Assembly: GCA_022844405.1 (NCBI GenBank)
Contig: JALHLV010000002.1
Coordinates: 124,001-188,000, forward strand
Direction of reading: 5' to 3'
From: Sphingomonadales bacterium
GTDB lineage: Bacteria; Pseudomonadota; Alphaproteobacteria; SMXS01
DNA length: 64,000 nt
The notes below the pieces were generated by a model. The model was not told the DNA's origin and searched no databases. It saw nothing but the letters and a program-made list of their open reading frames with translations. Below, one piece after another: positions 34,112 to 61,213 of this stretch (the stretch's first letter is position 1; each line of letters starts with the position of its first letter). The position numbers were made by a program, and so were the translations under genes.

Positions 34112-34201
34112 GGAGGGGTGGCCGAGCGGTTGAAGGCGCACGCCTGGAAAGTGTGTAAGGGTGCAAGCCCTTCGTGGGTTCGAATCCCATCCCCTCCGCC
34201 A
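34112..34201 (+). tRNA. tRNA-Ser (anticodon GGA)
   Basis: Acceptor GGAGGGG/CCCCTCC, anticodon loop with GGA (GCCTGGAAAGT), long variable arm (GTAAGGGTGCAAGCCCTTC), T loop GGTTCGAATCCC and encoded CCA. Sequence downstream turns more AT-rich, so this is the natural left border of the island, though no attachment repeat is seen. Confidence 0.95.
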
Positions 34202-34446
34202 GTTCTATCCTATTGTTTTCACGATTTGTTTTTGACTTCAAAGTGGGAAGGCCGTCTTGATCGTTCAGGGATTTCTTCCAGTTTGGGGGATATCCGATGC
34301 GAGAGCGGATTGGTGACCCACATTTGATTGGTCCCCAATCAAATCCCAGACGCCCTCTGATGGCCAGCTCAAGGAAGCGCTCCAGTTCATCCATGGATCA
34401 GGCCCAGCCAGTCGCATCCCGCCGCTCGCCGACTTGCCGGCCGCAG

Positions 34447-35001: not shown

Positions 35002-36180
35002 TCATTCGCCGTCGATACCAGGTGTTCTGGCCGCCATGCCGAACGAATTAAGGCCAAGATTTTCGCGGAGATCGGTCGTCGCATCAGTCGCCATTGCGTC
35101 AAGCGGAATGCCTGTTGCATCGGCGACCCGCACCATGCGCTCGAAGTTCCCTACGACGGCGGCGGCATCGACGAATCCATCGCCCCCCACGGCCGCAATT
35201 ACTGCCGCACGGGCATCGGCCAGTTCCCCGTCGCTCCCCGAAATGACGGCCTCGGCGAAACGCGCGAGGGTTTTGCCATGCGGCACCCGGTCATCTACCG
35301 CATCGGCACCAATGACAACGCCAGACAAATCGACCTCCTCGCCCTTTGTTCCCATGCTCAAACTGAGCATCATCGCGTGCGAGGCGGTTCAATAGAAACA
35401 GTCGTTAATCGCAGACACGCGTGCCGCGAGGAGTTCCAACTGTTCGCGGCCGAGCGTCCGTCCGTGCGAGAAGTCAGTCGCTCGGTCAAGGGGAATGTAT
35501 TGGGCGGCGCTGAGAATGCGCAGGTCGCGTACAGCATCGGGCACCAGGCTCATGGCCCGCAGTCCATAGTAGATGCTGCTGTCATCCCATAAATCGTCAT
35601 TTGGTGGCGCCGGCTGGCGGGCCGGCATCATGGCCACGAAGGCATCGCCGGCAGGTTCGACCTCAGGGCGAATGCGGCTGGGTTCGCCGGCAAGGGGTGC
35701 TGGTAATCGATGGAGCGGTACGCCCAGACCTCGACACGCCTGGTCAATGCTGCGCAGTGCAACACCGATGCCGAGAGCCTCCACATAATGCGCGTCGCTC
35801 AGTCCTGCGCTTGCAAGGCGTTCAATCGCCGTGGCCGTCATCCGCGTGGGGTTGGTCATCGCGAGATGAAGAATATCGATAATCTCTACCGGCAGCACGC
35901 CGTCATGGACTGGATCGGTTACGTGAGTGCCCACAATAGAATAGGGACTCAGCGCGGCCTTGCGTTCTTCACAGAAACTACATTTGTGGACCGTCCGCGA
36001 ATTCGCCGCGATGGCGACCCGTTCCGCGCCGGTCCACCACGCACCTGGCATGGCAAGGCGAGTCAGGAACAGCGCGTGAGCGCCAATGATGTCGTCGCGA
36101 ACCGGCACCTGACAATGGCCCATATCCTCAATGACGGATTGAAGAATTGCGTCATCGGCTACCTGATCGGTTCTCGGCAT
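35002..36180 (-). CDS. AhpD-like selenoprotein with CxxU motif (Sec264)
   Basis: Reading TGA at 35389-35391 as selenocysteine joins two open frames into one 392-residue protein. Around the TGA the protein reads SAINDCFY-U-TASHAMML, the CxxC-x3-H active site of AhpD/carboxymuconolactone decarboxylase proteins with Sec in place of the second Cys. An N-terminal half holds HKCSFC and may be a second, related domain. A hairpin with AGTTT loop (35354-35370) follows the TGA. The ATG at 36180 has an AGGGAG site; the frame opens to 36249. It is the last gene of selD-selA-selB. Predicted thiol/selenol peroxidase or reductase. Confidence 0.8.
35337..35384 (-). ncRNA. SECIS-like hairpin in the AhpD-like selenoprotein mRNA
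   Basis: Apical stem ATGCTC/GAGCAT with loop AGTTT at 35354-35370, beginning 18 nt after the TGA. An outer stem CCTCGC/GCGAGG may close it. A bacterial SECIS needs a G/U-bearing loop at this distance for SelB binding. Confidence 0.6.
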
Positions 36181-36296
36181 GGAATTTGCCCGCTCCCTTT
36201 GAACCCCAAGGGTTAATCTTACGCCACCATCGGCGTCAGCACCAATCATTGGAGTGCCACGGGAAGAGATTGCGCGATGGTGGTTCTGTATAGCTG

Positions 36297-38189
36297 CTAA
36301 CCCTGGAAAATACGGACGTCTTCGCGGCGCCGCGTTATCTTTTTCTTGTCGAGATACTCAAGCAGCGGTTGAAGATATTTGCGCGTCACGCCGAGATGTT
36401 CCCGTGCTTCGCCCAATCGGAACTGGGCAGGAGGCGGCCAGGCCCTACGCAGGGACGTTACCGCCTGCTCGATATCCACTACATGAAACAGAAACAGGTT
36501 TTTGCGCTTGAAGTCGTACAACGGCACCAGGCGGCCGGTCTCGATCAGGAGTTCGATCCGGGAGGCGTTGCGCTTGTCGTTTGCAAGGACCTCCTCCATG
36601 GTTGGGGGCATCAGCGGGATTTCCCGGATCTTGGCTTCCAGCTGCTGAATTCGGCCACGCTCGGTGCCGTCAAGCCCCGCCAAGGGGTCGAAACCCCTGA
36701 CGCCAATCCGGTCACCATTCGAATCCAGGTCGCCCCGGGCACAAAGCGCAGCGATTACAAGATCACCTGATGGCTTGGAGATGCCAAGTTTCTCGACCAA
36801 CTGGAGGCGTGTAATTCCGATGCGCGTCGGGAAAGCCAGGTGATGGGCCTGGACGAGTTTGATCGCCATTTGTGAGAGCATCTCGGCCTGGCGGGGCGCC
36901 AGAACGTGCCCTTCCATGCTGATAAGCGCCTGGCCATTGGTCAGAGCGAATCGCACGTCCTCGACAGGGGTCCCAAAGCGCTCCGCCATCATCGTCAGCG
37001 TAGTGCCGCCTGGTCCAGCCTGTTCCGCGACGGCCAGAACAGCGCTTTGCCGGTCACTACCGCTGGCGGCCAAAAGCTGCGCAATGGCGGTCTGATCATG
37101 CCGTTTCACGCAGGTGGCGCGTGTATTCAGAAAACGCCCGCCGCCGACGGTTTCGAGCGGCGAAATGGTTCTGACAATGAAGTGGTCCTGATCCCACGCA
37201 GCCTCGGGCGGTTTCATCCTGAACTGGACGATTGCGCTCTCCCCCGGATTGAGATCGTCGCGGTCAAGTATGCGCAGGTTGACGATGGTCTCCCTGGTGC
37301 CGTAAAGCAGCCGAACGGGCTTACCATTGTGAAGGCTTGTCTCTATGTCGCGCGCCATCTGCAGCGTCGCCGTCCACCATTCGGATCGGGCGAGCCAACC
37401 TGGAGACGCCAACGATTGACCTCGCTTTAGCCTGACCCCGCTTTCGACCCGGAGATTAACCGCTACTCTTTGTCCCGGCGCCGCCCGTACTGCTTCCGCT
37501 CCGTGGACCTCGAGGCGGCGCACCTTTGCAGCAATGCCCAGATCGGGCACTTCGGCTTCGTCGCCCACTTCCAGACTTCCGGCGCGCAATGTTCCAGTAA
37601 CCACGGTGCCGAACCCTGGCATCGTGAACACCCGGTCAAACGGCAGATAGAATTTTCCTGTGTCAGGCCGTTTTGTCCTTTCGGCGAACAGGTCATCGAG
37701 CGCGGCGACCAGACTGGCAAGCCCCTCGCCGGTGCGCGCGCAAACCGGAACGATCGCCGCACTTTCAAATCCCATGCGCGCAAGGTCTTCACCTATGGCC
37801 GTTTGCCGTACCGTCAGGTCGCTGGCTGTGACCAGATCAGTTTTAGTGAGGGCGATGACCGACCTTGTGATGCCCAGAAGAGAGATGATCCGAAGGTGTT
37901 CGCGGGTCTGAGGCATGATCCCCTCGTTCGCAGCAATGCAGACGAGCGCAGCGTCAATTCCCGTCGCGCCTGAGATCATGGTGCGGACAAAATCAGCGTG
38001 TCCCGGAGAGTCGATGAAGTCGATCAGACCTGTAGACGTCTTGAGATAGGCAAACCCCAGTACGATGGTCAGTCCGCGTTCGCGTTCTTCGGGAAGGCGG
38101 TCCGTTTCGATGCCGGTCAAGGCTTTGACCAGCGTAGTCTTGCCATGATCAACATGGCCGATAACGCCGATCGACAGATGCTCATCCAC
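36297..38189 (-). CDS. selB: Selenocysteine-specific elongation factor SelB
   Basis: 630 residues: GTPase domain (GVIGHVDHGKTTLVKALTGI, DSPGHADFV, TKTD), EF-Tu-like domains II-III and a C-terminal winged-helix region for SECIS RNA (LGVTRKYLQPLLEYLDKKKI). It brings Sec-tRNA to UGA codons. GTG start, 5 nt after selA, so translation is probably coupled. Confidence 0.96.
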   Translation of the reverse strand: MDEHLSIGVIGHVDHGKTTLVKALTGIETDRLPEERERGLTIVLGFAYLKTSTGLIDFIDSPGHADFVRTMISGATGIDAALVCIAANEGIMPQTREHLRIISLLGITRSVIALTKTDLVTASDLTVRQTAIGEDLARMGFESAAIVPVCARTGEGLASLVAALDDLFAERTKRPDTGKFYLPFDRVFTMPGFGTVVTGTLRAGSLEVGDEAEVPDLGIAAKVRRLEVHGAEAVRAAPGQRVAVNLRVESGVRLKRGQSLASPGWLARSEWWTATLQMARDIETSLHNGKPVRLLYGTRETIVNLRILDRDDLNPGESAIVQFRMKPPEAAWDQDHFIVRTISPLETVGGGRFLNTRATCVKRHDQTAIAQLLAASGSDRQSAVLAVAEQAGPGGTTLTMMAERFGTPVEDVRFALTNGQALISMEGHVLAPRQAEMLSQMAIKLVQAHHLAFPTRIGITRLQLVEKLGISKPSGDLVIAALCARGDLDSNGDRIGVRGFDPLAGLDGTERGRIQQLEAKIREIPLMPPTMEEVLANDKRNASRIELLIETGRLVPLYDFKRKNLFLFHVVDIEQAVTSLRRAWPPPAQFRLGEAREHLGVTRKYLQPLLEYLDKKKITRRREDVRIFQG

Positions 38190-38194
38190 CGGAA

Positions 38195-39586
38195 TCAGCC
38201 ACTGTCGGCTATGGCGGCGATCGCGCCTGCGATGTCAGCGATGTCGTCGTCCATCAGCGTGCGGACATCCAGGGTAAAACACTCGCCGATAATCCTGCCG
38301 ATGATCGCTGGCTCGTGGGCCCTTAACGCGGCAGTCAAATGCTCCGCGGAAATGCCCTCCAGCGTAATCCTCACGCCGACGGACTCAAGGTCAACCCCGG
38401 GAAGCGACCCGCCCCCCGCCTTCGATTGTACATGCGCTACCTCGGCCTTGGCTCCGGCGACAGAAGTGATCGCCTTTGCAAGCTTTCGGGCCTGTTTTGC
38501 AAGATCCGATGGGTCGGCTGTGAGCATCCTCAGCACAGGGATATCTTTGAGTGGATTGTGTGGTGCGCGGTAGAGCCGCAGCGTCGCCTCGAGAGCCGCA
38601 AGCGAAAGCTTGTCGACCCGCATCGCCCGCAACAGCGGGTTCTTGCGAATTTTCGCGAGCAATGAGGATCTTCCGACCATGATCCCGCATTGCGGCCCGC
38701 CGAGCAGTTTGTCGCCGGAGAATGTCACCAGATCGACCCCGGACCGGATGCTCTGGGAAACCGTTGGCTCGTCACCAAGACCATGGGCGGCCAGGTCGAC
38801 GATAGTGCCGCTGCCCAGATCCTCGACAAGAAGAAGTCCATTTTTGTGGGCCAGGTCGGCAAGGGTGGCCAGCGAAGGCTTTGTGGTGAACCCGACGAGC
38901 CTGTAGTTGCTGGTATGGGTGCGCAGAATGACGGCAGTTTCTTCGCCTATGGCTCCTTCGTAGTCGGCAAGGTGCGTCCTGTTGGTCGTTCCGACTTCGT
39001 GCAATCGAGCGCCGTTCTGAGAAATGACGTCAGGCACCCGAAATGAACCGCCTATTTCGACCAGTTCACCGCGTGAGACGATTACCTCCCGGTTCCGCGC
39101 GAATGTAGCCATGGCGATGGTCACCGCCGCCGCACAATTGTTAACGACAACCGCGTCCTCGGCGCCGGTCAACTCGCACAGAATATCCCGGACATGATCG
39201 TAGCGGGAGCCGCGCGCGCCCTTCTCGAGGTCGTATTCGATGTTGGCATAGCCCCGGGCCACGTCCTCCATGGCGGCAATCGCCTCTGGGGCCAACGGTG
39301 CCCGTCCCAGGTTTGTATGGATGATAATCCCGGTGCCATTTATGACGCGGCGGAGATTTGAGCGCCTTCTCGCTTCGAGCACTTGTTCCAGTCGGTTGAC
39401 AAAGGTGTCTGACTCAAAATCGGGCAGACTACCTCCATCCGTCAGATCGCGCCTGACCCTGTCGAACAGTTCCCGAAGCGCCGCGACAAGCTCAGCACGG
39501 GACCAATGCTCACGGAGGCCGGTAACCGCAGGCGATTCCAACACTTCGTTGACTTGGGGAATCCGCCTGAAGAGCTTCTTATCCAT
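38195..39586 (-). CDS. selA: Selenocysteine synthase SelA
   Basis: 463 residues; PLP enzyme converting Ser-tRNA-Sec to Sec-tRNA-Sec with selenophosphate. RRVINGTGIIIHTNLGRAPL and the PLP-lysine region DLVTFSGDKLLGGPQCGIMV are diagnostic. The start MDKKLFRRIPQV at 39586 is the family start; the frame continues upstream to 39628. Confidence 0.96.
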   Translation of the reverse strand: MDKKLFRRIPQVNEVLESPAVTGLREHWSRAELVAALRELFDRVRRDLTDGGSLPDFESDTFVNRLEQVLEARRRSNLRRVINGTGIIIHTNLGRAPLAPEAIAAMEDVARGYANIEYDLEKGARGSRYDHVRDILCELTGAEDAVVVNNCAAAVTIAMATFARNREVIVSRGELVEIGGSFRVPDVISQNGARLHEVGTTNRTHLADYEGAIGEETAVILRTHTSNYRLVGFTTKPSLATLADLAHKNGLLLVEDLGSGTIVDLAAHGLGDEPTVSQSIRSGVDLVTFSGDKLLGGPQCGIMVGRSSLLAKIRKNPLLRAMRVDKLSLAALEATLRLYRAPHNPLKDIPVLRMLTADPSDLAKQARKLAKAITSVAGAKAEVAHVQSKAGGGSLPGVDLESVGVRITLEGISAEHLTAALRAHEPAIIGRIIGECFTLDVRTLMDDDIADIAGAIAAIADSG

Positions 39587-39651
39587 TGAACTGATTGTAT
39601 CCCGCTTTCTCCCGACGATCCTAGACAAAGCAGGCGCAATTCCAACGGCAA

Positions 39652-40716
39652 TTAGTCCGCAACAATTGTGCCGGTTGGCCCCTCGGTTACCTCACCGATA
39701 TGCCACACCTGTTCGCCTGCCTCATGGAAGGCCGTCAATACGCGGCTCAGCGCTTCCGGCGCGACAGCGACCAGAAGTCCGCCAGACGTTTGCGGATCAT
39801 ATATCAGGCCGTGCCGCGCGGTCTGTCCGTTGGCTGTCTGGCTCACCCATTGACCGTAATAGTCTCGGTTCCGGTCCAACCCGCCTGAGCCAATGCCCTG
39901 CCCCAGCAAGCCTTCAGCGCCTGCCAGCACAGGTAATTCAGCCAGCCGGAATCGCATTGATACACCGGACAGATCGGCCATTTCGTGCGCATGTCCGGCT
40001 AGGGAAAAACCGGTTACGTCGGTGACTGCGTGGACGTCCAGACCGCCGCTGGTTCTGAGCAGCTTGACTGATTGGGCGCTTAGGCGCGTCATACTGTCGA
40101 TGGCCGCTCGTATGGACTCGCCGCTCGCCAAACCGCGCTTTAGGGCCGTCGCGATGATACCTGTTCCCAGCGGCTTGGTGAGCAGTAGCTGATCGCCCGG
40201 CCTTGCGCCCTCATTCCGATAAATTTTATCGAGTTCCACCAATCCGACGACAGCCAGGCCATACTTGGGTTCGTGATCGGTTATCGTGTGGCCGCCCGCG
40301 ACGACCGCCCCCGCTTCGAGCACCTTGTCCGCCCCGCCACGCAGTATGTCGCCAAGAATCCGAGGGTCCATGTCCTTCGGGAAAGCGGCTAGATTGATCG
40401 CGAGGACCGGCCGCCCGCCCATCGCGTAGACGTCCGACAATGCATTGGCTGCCGCAATCGCGCCAAATTCATACGGGTCATCAACGATGGGTGCAAAGAA
40501 GTCTGCTGTCAGGACAAGGGCTTGCTTATCATCCAATTTCAGCACAGCAGCATCGTCGGGTGCGCTCAACCCTCTGAGCACATCCGGGAAGTCCGCTTGC
40601 GGAAACATCAATTTCAATGGTCGCAAAACTTGCGACAGGTCCTCTGGCCCTAACTTGCCGGCTCAACCAGCCGACATAGCAAATTGGGTCAGGCGAACGT
40701 CAGCCCGATCCGTCAT
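39652..40716 (-). CDS. selD: Selenide, water dikinase SelD, itself a selenoprotein (Sec18)
   Basis: Makes selenophosphate from selenide and ATP. From ATG 40716 the protein reads LTQFAMSAG-U-AGKLGPEDLSQV: TGA at 40663-40665 stands where E. coli SelD has Cys17, with the catalytic Lys three residues later. The rest (RILGDILRGGADKVLEAGAV, YDPQTSGGLLVAV) is a complete SelD. Without Sec decoding, a caller would start at 40626 and lose the active site. Total 354 residues. First gene of the selD-selA-selB-ahpD-like unit. Confidence 0.93.
40620..40636 (-). ncRNA. SECIS-like hairpin in selD mRNA
   Basis: GTCGCA/TGCGAC stem with AGTTT apical loop, the loop starting 32 nt after the Sec TGA of selD. Same loop as in two other selenoprotein genes here. 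Confidence 0.6.
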
Positions 40717-40847
40717 GCCTTGATGACTCCTTGCAAGTTGAACACCCGGAACTTGTAGCGGTTCACCTTATTGGCGTCCACACGCCTTGACTTTGGTCCC
40801 GTAGGTAGCGAACGATCTCCCGCATAGGGCGAACGGCCATATTGCTT

Positions 40848-40941
40848 GGAGACGACTGGAGTCTGGTGGCTTCCACGGCCTTCAAAGCCGATGACACGTA
40901 GCGATACGTGTGGTGGGTTCGATTCCCATCCGTCTCCGCCA
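40848..40941 (+). tRNA. selC: tRNA-Sec (anticodon UCA)
   Basis: 94 nt with CCA: acceptor GGAGACG/CGTCTCC, anticodon stem CGGC/GCCG holding CTTCAAA (anticodon TCA), a long extra arm (GACACGTAGCGATACGTGT) and T arm GTGGGTTCGATTCCCAT. The long extra arm and UCA anticodon are specific to tRNA-Sec. It lies between divergent selD and the plus-strand selenoprotein operon. Confidence 0.95.
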
Positions 40942-40978
40942 ACTGCTTGCGGCACGCAAGCCGAGAGAGGAACAGACC

Positions 40979-42571
40979 TTGCCCGACACGCGCACGTTGC
41001 ACAGCTTCGCGCTAACGGATGCCGGCGGTGCACAACATTCCTTCCCCGGCGGACAGCAGGCGCTGGTGGCGTTTGTTAAAGAAGACTGTCCAACCTGCAA
41101 TTTGGTCATGCCGGTCCTCGAGGCGCTTTACAAGGCCTACGGACAGGAAGTTGATTTCCTCGTTGCCGGCCAGACAGCCACAGGTAATGCCAGGCTGGCG
41201 GAGGTACATCGCCTGAGTGTCCCGATCCTGGATGACTCCGCGCTGAAGACCTCTTTCGAATACGACATCGATACGGTGCCGACCTTGTTCTGGGCAAATG
41301 CCGGTGGTGAACTGATCAGCACGGTGATCGGATTTGTCCGGGAGGAGTGGCAGGCGCTGGATGCCGCAATTGGAAAGTCCACCGGGGCCGGACCGGCAAA
41401 CATTTCATGGGAAGATTTGCCGGCCTGGCGTCCCGGCTGCGGCTCTCTTTCCGTTGACCCCACGATTGCGGATCGCCTTAGGGCCGAGGCCTCCAACAGC
41501 CCGTTGCGGGCGCGGAGTATCGATATAGCGCCAGCCGATGACGAATTCGAATTCATGTTCGATCAGGGCTTTACCGACGGTCTGCCAGTGATCCCGCCAA
41601 CCCCGGAACGCGTGATCCGCATGCTTGGTGGCACCAAACGACATGCGCAGGACATCATCGCCCGGATGCCGCCGAATATGGGCGACGTAACGGTGGAGAA
41701 GATCGCCATCAACGCGGTCATGGCGGGATGCAAACCGGAGTACATGCCCGTGCTGATCGCCGGCATTGACGCGATCTGTACCGACGAATTCAACATTCAC
41801 GGGGTCATGGCGACCACCATGGGCGCCGCGCCAGTGATGGTGGTCAACGGCCCAATCCGTCACAGGCTGGGCATGAATATGAAGATGGGTGCTCTAGGCC
41901 AGGGCAACCGGGCAAATGCAACCATAGGCCGGGCGCTCAGGCTGATCATCCGCAATATTGGCGGCGCACGGCCCGGCGGAACAGAGCGCTCCACACTTGG
42001 CAATCCGATGAAGTTTACGATGTGTTTCGCCGAATGGGAGGAGCGTAGCAATTGGGCCCCCCTGCATGTGGAACGCGGTTTCAAGGCTGAGGATTCGGTC
42101 CTGACGGTGTTTGCGATGACAAGCGGTCCGACCCTGATCGTGGATCAGGATTCACGCGATGCTGAACAGGTTGCGGGTTCAATGGGCATGTCGCTTGAAA
42201 GCGTCTTTCATCCCAGGGTTCACCGGGCCGCGATCGATACGCTGTTGGTCGTCTGCCCGGAGCATGTCGATACCCTGAGCCGGGGAAATTATTCAAAGGA
42301 CGACCTGCGCAAGCGCATTCAGAGCGTTACCGAGCGGCCGCTCCGCGACCTGGTGGAAGATGAGAAGTCAGGTATCGGCCTGAAGCGGGACCGGGCCGCC
42401 GCATTGTCCGCCGAAAAACTGGATCGTATGGTGCCAAAATTCGCGAGCGAGGAGTTCCTGCACATTGTTGTCGCAGGTTCCGACGCCGGCAAGTTTTCGG
42501 GCGCCTTCCATGGCTGGGCCAGTGGCAAGATCGGCTCCATGCCTGTATCCAGGAAGATTGAAGACGTTTAA
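40979..42571 (+). CDS. Thioredoxin-fold protein with large C-terminal domain of unknown function
   Basis: 530 residues from TTG 40979, with GAGAGGAA 5 nt upstream. Residues ~1-125 form a thioredoxin-like domain with redox motif EDCPTCNLVMPV and cis-Pro strand IDTVPTLFW. The remaining ~380 residues begin MFDQGFTDGLPVIPPTPERV and contain conserved-looking MAGCKPEYMPVLIAGIDA and AGSDAGKFSGAFHGWASGK. I do not recognise an established function for it. The gene starts 37 nt after selC and 41 nt before the UGSC selenoprotein, so it may be the electron donor or partner of the selenoproteins. Confidence 0.8.
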   Translation: MPDTRTLHSFALTDAGGAQHSFPGGQQALVAFVKEDCPTCNLVMPVLEALYKAYGQEVDFLVAGQTATGNARLAEVHRLSVPILDDSALKTSFEYDIDTVPTLFWANAGGELISTVIGFVREEWQALDAAIGKSTGAGPANISWEDLPAWRPGCGSLSVDPTIADRLRAEASNSPLRARSIDIAPADDEFEFMFDQGFTDGLPVIPPTPERVIRMLGGTKRHAQDIIARMPPNMGDVTVEKIAINAVMAGCKPEYMPVLIAGIDAICTDEFNIHGVMATTMGAAPVMVVNGPIRHRLGMNMKMGALGQGNRANATIGRALRLIIRNIGGARPGGTERSTLGNPMKFTMCFAEWEERSNWAPLHVERGFKAEDSVLTVFAMTSGPTLIVDQDSRDAEQVAGSMGMSLESVFHPRVHRAAIDTLLVVCPEHVDTLSRGNYSKDDLRKRIQSVTERPLRDLVEDEKSGIGLKRDRAAALSAEKLDRMVPKFASEEFLHIVVAGSDAGKFSGAFHGWASGKIGSMPVSRKIEDV

Positions 42572-42612
42572 ACTGAACGCAAGTAACCTGTGTTAGCGTG
42601 AAGAGGCTCGGC

Positions 42613-43131
42613 ATGACCACGATCTTGGACCCGACGAACGAACGTGTTCCAGTTGAACGGCAATTGACAGCGCGTGGCGGTCAGATCACCGGCATTGTCG
42701 GTCTGCTCGACATTCGCAAGCCGCGTGGCGACGTATTTCTGGATCGGCTCGATGAACAGCTTCGGGCCAGATTGCCCGGAGTTGAGGTCAGACGCTATGC
42801 AAAGCCGACCTTTACCAAGCCATGTCCCGATGATCTGCGGCTGCAAATCAAGCAAGAGTGCAATTTCGTTGTTGAGGCGCTCGCCGATTGAGGCTCGTGT
42901 ACGACGTGCAGTTTGCACGACACGGTTTGGTTTGAAATCCAGGGAATTCCCTCCGTTTCCGTTGCCTCCGAGGAGTTCGTGGACGCGGCCGACGTGCAAG
43001 CGACCGCGCTGGGAATGAAGGATGCCAAGGTTGTCTTCGTCAGGCATCCCATCCAGGACGCCACGGACGATGAAATGCGCGGCAAGGCCGACGAGACCCT
43101 GGAGGCAATCTTGGACGCGTTGACGACATGA
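42613..43131 (+). CDS. UGSC-motif selenoprotein (Sec93)
   Basis: TGA at 42889-42891 read as Sec gives 172 residues with FVVEALAD-U-GSCTTCSLHDTVWFE, the UGSC motif that names this (seleno)protein family. A TTCS pair follows, a likely redox partner. Sequence on both sides of the TGA is protein-like (IVGLLDIRKPRGDVFLDRLD before; GIPSVSVASEEFVDAADVQA after). ATG 42613 has an AAGAGG site; a GTG lies at 42598. A strong hairpin follows the TGA. Predicted cytosolic redox enzyme; reaction unknown. Confidence 0.85.
42896..42924 (+). ncRNA. SECIS-like hairpin in the UGSC mRNA
   Basis: CGTGT/ACACG and CGTGC/GCACG stems stack around loop AGTTT (42910-42914) with an ACGA bulge on the 5' side. The hairpin starts 5 nt and its loop 19 nt after the Sec TGA, ideal for a bacterial SECIS. 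Confidence 0.75.
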
Positions 43132-43152
43132 CGATGGGTTGCGAGTCCTAGA

Positions 43153-44409
43153 GTGGCGCGCTTGGAGAACATGGACGAGACCCTTCGGGGACATCTCGAG
43201 CATTTGGAATGCCCAGATTTGGGCGACACACCACTGGTTGAAGGACCGCCGCTGCCGGAACGGCGCGTTGCGATTATTTCTACCGCGGGGTTGCAGCGGC
43301 CTAGCGACCGGCCTTTTGGCTTTGCTGCGGCGGACTACCGGGTCATTCCCAGAGAGTCGGCTGGCAACCTGCAGATCAGCCATCTATCGACCAATTTTGA
43401 CCGTTCTGGTTTTCAGCAGGATACGAACGTCATCTTTCCGCTCGACCGTCTGAACGAACTCGCTGCCAACGGAATCATCGGTTCGGTGGCTGACTACCAT
43501 TATTCGTTCATGGGCGCTTCAGACCCCATGACCATGAAGACCGCAGCACGTCAGATAGCAGGTCTTCTGAAGCAGGATCAGGTCGATGCGGTTCTGCTCA
43601 CGCCGGTCTGACCGTTTTGCACGCGCGCCGTTGGCGGGCTTGGCCACTTTCTAGAAGCGGCAGGCATCCCGACGGTCGGGATTAGCCTGGTGCGGCTTCA
43701 CACCGAGAAGATCCGCCCGCCACGAGCATTGTGGGTGCCCTTTGAGCTGGGTCGTCCATTGGGCGTGCCCAACGATGCCCCGTTTCAAACGCGCGTGCTG
43801 TGTGCGGCTCTGGACTTGCTGCAGCGAACTGCCGGTCCTGTGCTGGAAGATTACCTCGAAGATGCGCCGTCGGGTGCCGAGGAGGACGGCGAAGGCTGGG
43901 TTTGTCCGATCAGTCTGCCCGTACCTGACTCGAGGCCAGAGGGGGATGCAGCATTGCTCGACGAAATCCAGGCCATGCGGTCCTGGTATGATTTGGCGAG
44001 GCGCCGTCGCGGCCGAACGGCTGTTGGCACCAGCGGGATGGAGATAGAGGAAATCGCTAGGTACCTGGCTGCGTGGACTAAGGGCGAAATGCCCGATAAA
44101 CCGCCTGGGAACAACGAGATGGACGCGTCAACGCTGCTGCGTGTCGCATGTGATGACATCAAAGCCTATTACTCCGAAGGCGCAACTGCGCAGCCGGGCC
44201 GAAATGGTCGCAACCCGTCCGCAAAGGACATTGCTGTTTGGTTCTGGTCCACGACACAGGCCGCCAACCTGCTGTTGAAACTCAGACAGGTTCTTTCCAA
44301 TAACGAAGACCGTACGCTTGCCCTCGTGGCACAATTTCTGATCGTCCCCTATACAGAGACGGATCGACAGCCACCTTCGTCACTGCGACGAAGCCCCAAT
44401 CCGCCTTAA
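43153..44409 (+). CDS. GrdB/PrdB-like reductase selenoprotein (Sec153)
   Basis: TGA at 43609-43611 read as Sec joins two frames into 418 residues: QVDAVLLTPV-U-PFCTRAVGGLGHFLEA. This is the UxxC active site of the glycine/sarcosine/betaine/D-proline reductase selenoprotein B family. After it come VGISLVRLHTEKIRPPRALW and VPFELGRPLGVPNDAPFQTR. Start GTG 43153 is weak; ATG 43171 is an alternative. In anaerobes the family acts with a pyruvoyl subunit that is missing here, so the substrate is likely different. It follows UGSC by 21 nt. Confidence 0.88.
43626..43636 (+). ncRNA. Possible SECIS hairpin in the GrdB/PrdB-like mRNA
   Basis: CGCC/GGCG with loop GTT, 15 nt after the TGA. The stem is short and the loop differs from the AGTTT of the other three, so this call is weak. 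Confidence 0.35.
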
Positions 44410-61054: not shown

Positions 61055-61213
61055 TCAGTGGCTCATGTTGCGCATCTGCTCCTGTACGGAGTTGATCTTG
61101 CGGTCCCGTTCGGCGGCCTCGCGCGACTTGTCGCTGGTGGCGGCCGTCGGCGCGCTGTCGGACTGGCACGCGGCCAGCAGGACGGCGGCGATCGCGAACC
61201 ATAGGCGTTTCAC
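61055..61213 (-). CDS. Small lipoprotein
   Basis: 52 residues from GTG 61213 with a GGAGGAG site 4 nt upstream: KRLWFAIAAVLLAACQSDSA, a clear lipobox (LAAC), then a charged helical tail (KSREAAERDRKINSVQEQMR) ending NMSH. Predicted to be lipid-anchored in the envelope; function unknown. Too short for many gene finders. Confidence 0.75.
   Translation of the reverse strand: MKRLWFAIAAVLLAACQSDSAPTAATSDKSREAAERDRKINSVQEQMRNMSH

Follow-up and report, generated by a model that had tools for sequence, protein, structure and literature searches.

The question raised by this locus is with which partners, if any, a GrdB/PrdB-like selenoprotein operates that is encoded directly beside a UGSC selenoprotein and a thioredoxin-domain protein. 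The window analyzed here is the whole stretch of 64,000 nucleotides from a Sphingomonadales bacterium (contig JALHLV010000002.1). The following features were found relevant:

36297..38189, minus strand: selB, Sec-specific elongation factor, divergent (TIGR00475, 266.2 versus 242.25 bits)
38195..39628, minus strand: presumably selA, selenocysteine synthase; start codon uncertain; homologues lie beside selB/tRNA-Sec in other loci
39652..40716, minus strand: selD, itself read as a selenoprotein (U18, SAGUAGK); same Sec motif in loci L082, L119 and L120
40848..40941, plus strand: tRNA-Sec, by ARAGORN (Rfam RF01852, 76.8 bits, 40848-40937)
40979..42571, plus strand: Trx-TC, a thioredoxin-like domain (CPTC) fused to a domain called TC here; likely TTG start at 40979; AF2 pLDDT 94.7
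42613..43132, plus strand: UGSC selenoprotein (PF24696); likely ATG start at 42613, Sec codon 42889-42891; AF2 pLDDT 94.7
43153..44409, plus strand: GrdB/PrdB-like selenoprotein of the long form, with VUPFC at Sec codon 43609-43611; residues beyond about 230 form a C-terminal extension outside any model
43623..43639, plus strand: SECIS-like hairpin 3' of the GrdB-like UGA, positions 15-31 from its U; 31 distinct segments

The GrdB-like protein and its UGA codon

Read through the single TGA at 43609-43611, the otherwise open frame encodes a GrdB-like protein of 418 amino acids. The initial annotation had recognized in it the UPFC active site of the GrdB/PrdB reductase family, and this was confirmed by PF07355 (39.2 bits versus a cut-off of 22, the match stopping at residue 150 just 5' of the Sec codon), by the site U153-P-F-C itself and by the alignment with PrdB. 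The best-aligning named model was TIGR04483 (PrdB), which covered residues 33-224 with 94.6 bits and stayed under its cut-off of 300; the other named NCBIfam models of the GrdB/GrdF/GrdH type also remained under cut-off. Matches to the protein were found in 50 of 385 genomes of the class, with 36 rows from 33 genomes representing the long form, defined as GrdB-like proteins of about 400 amino acids with a C-terminal extension of their own. Counted over 35 long rows, with TGA taken as C, the U column and the second Cys were invariant, and further conserved polar residues were present. In the tree, all 36 long forms fell into one group (support 100/100), set apart from the short forms and from four PrdB of the clostridial type; PrdB carried a long-branch warning, and one short row, L229, joined the long forms with a branch length of 2.2. 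Sequence searches against solved structures yielded the TIM-barrel HisF group for P0002, with no single stretch passing alone, and weak asparaginase-type matches for PrdB. The gene encodes a genuine B-type reductase selenoprotein without the usual partner genes. A generic thiol-disulfide or peroxide reductase using the U-x-x-C pair on no carbon substrate was also considered, given the UxxC motif and the GST-like genes that adjoin some long-form loci. We regard it as distinctly improbable, since about 190 residues, comprising the core and the surroundings of the active site, can be aligned with PrdB and other polar residues are conserved, both of which go beyond the needs of a redox motif.

An in-frame TGA was present in 33 of the 36 long-form rows. 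The three rows without it (G137, G143, G349) come from genomes with no SelB over cut-off; a few rows carried a second TGA or a TAG within the matched stretch. The hairpin 3' of the GrdB-like UGA was paired in 29 to 31 of 31 distinct segments, with two-sided changes at two pairs, and the corresponding UGSC hairpin, 17-31 from UGA, was paired in 68 of 68 distinct segments, with G23 and T24 conserved. Both occupy the positions named for the E. coli SECIS in the pertinent passage of a review (PMC8659212). Folded alone, the GrdB-like hairpin of the window was no better than shuffles (z about +0.4 to +0.7). Codon shuffling gave a non-significant z of -0.28 for the GrdB-like set and a better value of -1.63 for the UGSC set; coding constraint alone could preserve the hairpin pairs. 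Judged by these sequence features, the TGA at 43609 is a Sec codon and not a stop. A same-genus genome without SelB over cut-off carries, on a 6-kb contig, a long-form gene with two TGAs (G264:C98; loci L026 and L042), which represents contamination or a relic.

Missing partners and the Sec gene block

The initial annotation had also stated that the usual partners are not nearby, and for the pyruvoyl subunit this held beyond the window. Profile searches found PF09338, the PrdA/GrdE pyruvoyl subunit family, in none of the 33 long-form genomes, with two of two control plasmids matched as positive control. PF04723 (GrdA) was likewise found in none of the 33, in a search run without a positive control. 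No grdA or prdA-type gene lies near the GrdB-like gene of the window, and such genes beside close homologues, named beforehand as the finding that would speak against the claim, were looked for and not found. A true D-proline or glycine-type reductase with its partner genes elsewhere in the genome, to which PrdB as the closest named model might point, is already largely refuted by the PF09338 result with its working control, by the PrdB score far under cut-off and by the separate clade with support 100/100; we give it next to no probability. As part of the overall explanation given below, the long-form clade would work without the pyruvoyl partner PrdA/GrdE.

The order of genes is selB-selA-selD on the opposite strand, tRNA-Sec, and then Trx-TC, UGSC and the GrdB-like gene on the plus strand. 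As selD, with an in-frame UGA at its active-site position (40663-40665, minus strand), is read through as well, the block encodes three selenoproteins. Adjoining selB, an ORF with a CSFC motif was observed (35389-36249, minus strand), which we take to resemble AhpD/carboxymuconolactone decarboxylase proteins. A Sec formate dehydrogenase gave no match over cut-off in the own genome. Sec genes were found in the flanks of 15 of the 36 long-form loci, often with selD next door, and none was near in the other 21. This distribution bears on the proposal that the GrdB-like protein serves selenium metabolism, delivering or reducing selenium for SelD, which would explain its place by selD and selA/selB. 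The 15 loci speak for it; the 21 loci and the TGA-free forms in G137, G143 and G349, whose genomes lack SelB over cut-off, speak against it, and we rate this role as rather unlikely.

Sec genes were also present in the flanks of 20 of 80 TC loci, often with TC directly 3' of tRNA-Sec (Henriciella, Phenylobacterium, Hyphomonas, Sulfitobacter). The locus of a sister genus aligned to window positions 36319-44249; its near flanks did not align, and lepA was found there on another contig. For the same-genus genome G167 the alignment ended at 34202, beyond tRNA-Ser (34112-34201), and resumed only at 61055, which places the block in a variable region (34203-61055). Since the GrdB-like gene and the Trx-TC/UGSC pair recur separately beside Sec machinery, the 8-kb block is read as a putative self-contained, portable Sec cassette with two cargoes that would move as a block.

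Trx-TC, UGSC and their relation to the GrdB-like gene

The UGSC protein of the window belongs to its family by PF24696 (164.1 versus 25 bits) and the UGSC motif. For TC, the C-terminal 350 residues of Trx-TC, none of 22 members was matched in Pfam and none of 22 in NCBIfam. TC was located beside UGSC in 39 of 40 UGSC loci of the class, L124 being the exception, and it adjoined UGSC in all six plasmid loci examined that carry UGSC. Among 80 TC loci from named genomes, a sample of top matches to the TC of the window that leans to the Trx-fused clade, 77 contained a Sec-UGSC and 77 a Trx domain, fused in frame to TC in the 77 Trx/TC pairs. UGSC was found within 1.5 kb of TC on the same strand in 73 of these 80 loci; the remaining seven had it further off (L175, L176, L195, L214), on the opposite strand (L191, L213) or ended with the contig (L208). 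L194, L201 and L208 showed no Sec-UGSC; several TC loci are cut by contig ends. In unfused cases, trxB adjoins the pair in plasmid-borne loci of Variovorax, Arthrobacter and Roseovarius, in Arthrobacter together with trxA, and TRAP or tripartite tricarboxylate transport genes are present in two of these three. Neighbors of TC loci include acyl-CoA dehydrogenases, CoA-transferases, SDRs, AMP-ligases, GMC oxidoreductases and amidohydrolases, a gene content that indicates a catabolic setting. Invariant residues include C37, C154, D200, R318 and E352 of Trx-TC and C/U93, G94, C96, C99, H102 and D103 of UGSC. The sets A2 and A3 comprised 70 of 73 and 70 of 75 relatives, respectively, after removal of near copies. 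The true unit is thioredoxin-TC plus UGSC, which in the overall explanation given below would be an enzyme separate from the GrdB-like protein and conserved across phyla.

Two further ideas on TC were discarded. A PrdA relationship by sequence was rejected with an hhalign probability of 0.1 against three PrdA sequences, and pyruvoyl formation from the near-invariant Cys of the MAGC motif was rejected because L147 has Ala at this position. Some genomes contain multiplied UGSC genes (G187, G195, G281, G359, G366 and others), with up to 8 copies per genome, nearly all with one in-frame TGA. Some UGSC loci contain two TC genes (L138, L146, L104); the doubling suggests heteromeric partners.

Comparing profiles, UGSC matched PrdB plus short forms with probabilities of 90.3 and 91.1 for two UGSC sets, over 92-94 columns and with an E of about 1e-6, counted for one comparison. 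PrdB alone gave 65 and 83, and the long form alone was weaker with 70 and 45. As controls, the UGSC profile gave 0.3-0.4 with Trx and 0.2-0.3 with TC; 60 column shuffles did not exceed 4.1, and the reversed profile gave 0.1. At the level of sequence profiles, UGSC is a remote homologue and miniature relative of the PrdB/GrdB Sec domain. Its AF2 model shows a flavodoxin/CheY/lumazine-synthase-like three-layer alpha/beta fold (Z up to 10.9, generic), with the Sec at the start of the helix following the third strand. No thioredoxin was named among the 50 fold matches listed, and absence from such a list excludes nothing. For the Trx-TC model the listed matches were taken up by the Trx domain, and sequence searches against solved structures gave no match for TC and none for UGSC.

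The initial annotation had taken UGSC and the thioredoxin-domain protein for partners of the GrdB-like protein. The part that stood is the arrangement: the genes are present, and in the window and in one sister genus (G341) all three are adjacent on the same strand, with a gap of 20 bp in the window, an adjacency retained after divergence to 71% (GrdB-like) and 87% (UGSC) identity. This suggests a joint function there, and a lineage-specific cooperation of the three genes may exist in these two genomes. The part that did not stand is generality. Examining the flanks of all 36 long-form rows, up to about 9 kb per side with some cut by contig ends, UGSC or TC was found adjoining in these two loci only and was absent from the flanks of the other 34. 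Neither was found beside the short form in 20 loci, hand-picked down the match list from the remaining rows, and no GrdB-like gene was found in the 80 TC loci. The phylogeny likewise contradicted a UGSC-linked proteobacterial clade: the two linked long forms are sister rows (100/99) nested among long forms without such linkage. A general UGSC-GrdB clade was rejected on these grounds. Co-occurrence of UGSC and the long form was strong across all genomes (both, long form only, UGSC only, neither: 22/11/16/336) and weak, slightly above expectation, within 55 Sec-decoding genomes (22/7/13/13, Fisher p = 0.056; 54 genomes with SelB over cut-off plus G338 with 219 bits and a match on the first 157 model positions only), so that the link mostly follows the Sec trait.

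A single three-protein reductase of GrdB-like protein, UGSC and Trx-TC, in which UGSC-TC replaces the pyruvoyl subunit, as first proposed, would fit the adjacency on one strand in the window and G341, and by their remote homology UGSC and the GrdB-like protein could both serve one substrate complex. Against this, 34 of 36 long forms have no UGSC/TC in their vicinity, a GrdB-like gene is absent from all 80 TC loci, and 11 of 33 long-form genomes lack UGSC altogether; we hold such a complex to be improbable. The GrdB-like and UGSC-TC enzymes seem to share a block as neighbors without forming a common machine.

Proposed chemistry and comparison with known systems

The explanation that we favor, with slightly better than even confidence, is that of a pyruvoyl-free GrdB-like selenoprotein, one of two cargoes beside a separate Trx-TC-UGSC enzyme in a transferable Sec cassette. 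Gene content, Sec, the absence of PF09338 and the non-linkage to UGSC elsewhere support it directly; the role of TC in substrate binding, the electron path and the carbonyl substrate are what we infer in addition. Substrate activation in glycine and D-proline reductases is a pyruvoyl step. According to a 2026 review, the B-type selenol breaks the C-N bond of a substrate that a partner has activated (PMC13188914). By analogy, UGSC would act as the selenol reductase of the Trx-TC-UGSC enzyme; TC would probably bind the substrate, and electrons would come from the fused thioredoxin domain or from trxA/trxB of the operon. The GrdB-like protein most likely follows the same chemistry: its selenolate would attack the carbon next to a carbonyl and cleave a C-X bond, and the selenenyl-sulfide formed with the neighboring Cys would then be reduced by a thioredoxin. 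With no pyruvoyl subunit available, the carbonyl should already be present on the substrate, as in a keto acid or thioester; a CoA-transferase neighbor was found in only a few long-form loci. A wider reading sees in UGSC-TC-thioredoxin a third branch of the selenol chemistry of glycine and proline reductases, free of pyruvoyl and spread over catabolic clusters, both chromosomal and plasmid-borne, in bacteria and haloarchaea, with the GrdB-like protein of the cassette as a further pyruvoyl-free branch borrowing the same thioredoxin-TC partner; this we put forward as a speculative and fairly unlikely extension.

No later than 2005 and 2008, marine "PrdB" and UGSC selenoproteins were already on record (PMC1088965, PMC2398784), and the 2026 review describes the functions of such selenoproteins, UGSC included, as still largely uncharacterized (PMC13188914). 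In the open-access literature no paper on a UGSC operon was found, nor were the TC partnership of UGSC, the UGSC-PrdB kinship and the two-cargo cassette, which we regard as new here. With a fixed partner TC, a built-in thioredoxin and a place in the PrdB/GrdB superfamily, UGSC is no longer an orphan and becomes part of a two-gene enzyme amenable to expression and assay, and the independence of the GrdB-like gene from UGSC avoids a false three-subunit model.

Compared with known systems, the window protein shares with PrdB of D-proline reductase (TIGR04483) the Sec core with UxxC over about 190 aligned residues and differs by its score under cut-off (94.6 versus 300), the lack of PrdA, 190 extra C-terminal residues and its separate clade. 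With the selenoprotein B of glycine, sarcosine and betaine reductases (GrdB/GrdF/GrdH) it has PF07355 and the active-site region in common; however, the named NCBIfam models remain under cut-off and no GrdE-type gene was found in the 33 long-form genomes. The marine "PrdB" with UxxC, abundant in aquatic bacteria with 42 Sargasso Sea and 235 GOS sequences according to passages of the two reports (PMC1088965, PMC2398784), probably belongs to the same family, as judged from its description; proline reductase is assigned in these passages, which do not discuss missing partners. The neighbor of the window protein is a clear member of the UGSC family (PF24696/NF041046), for which the GOS authors proposed a Trx-like fold and recorded a fusion to "Unknown_1" (PMC2398784). 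To this family our analysis adds the tie to the unmodelled TC and the fused Trx domain, and a remote kinship with PrdB/GrdB.
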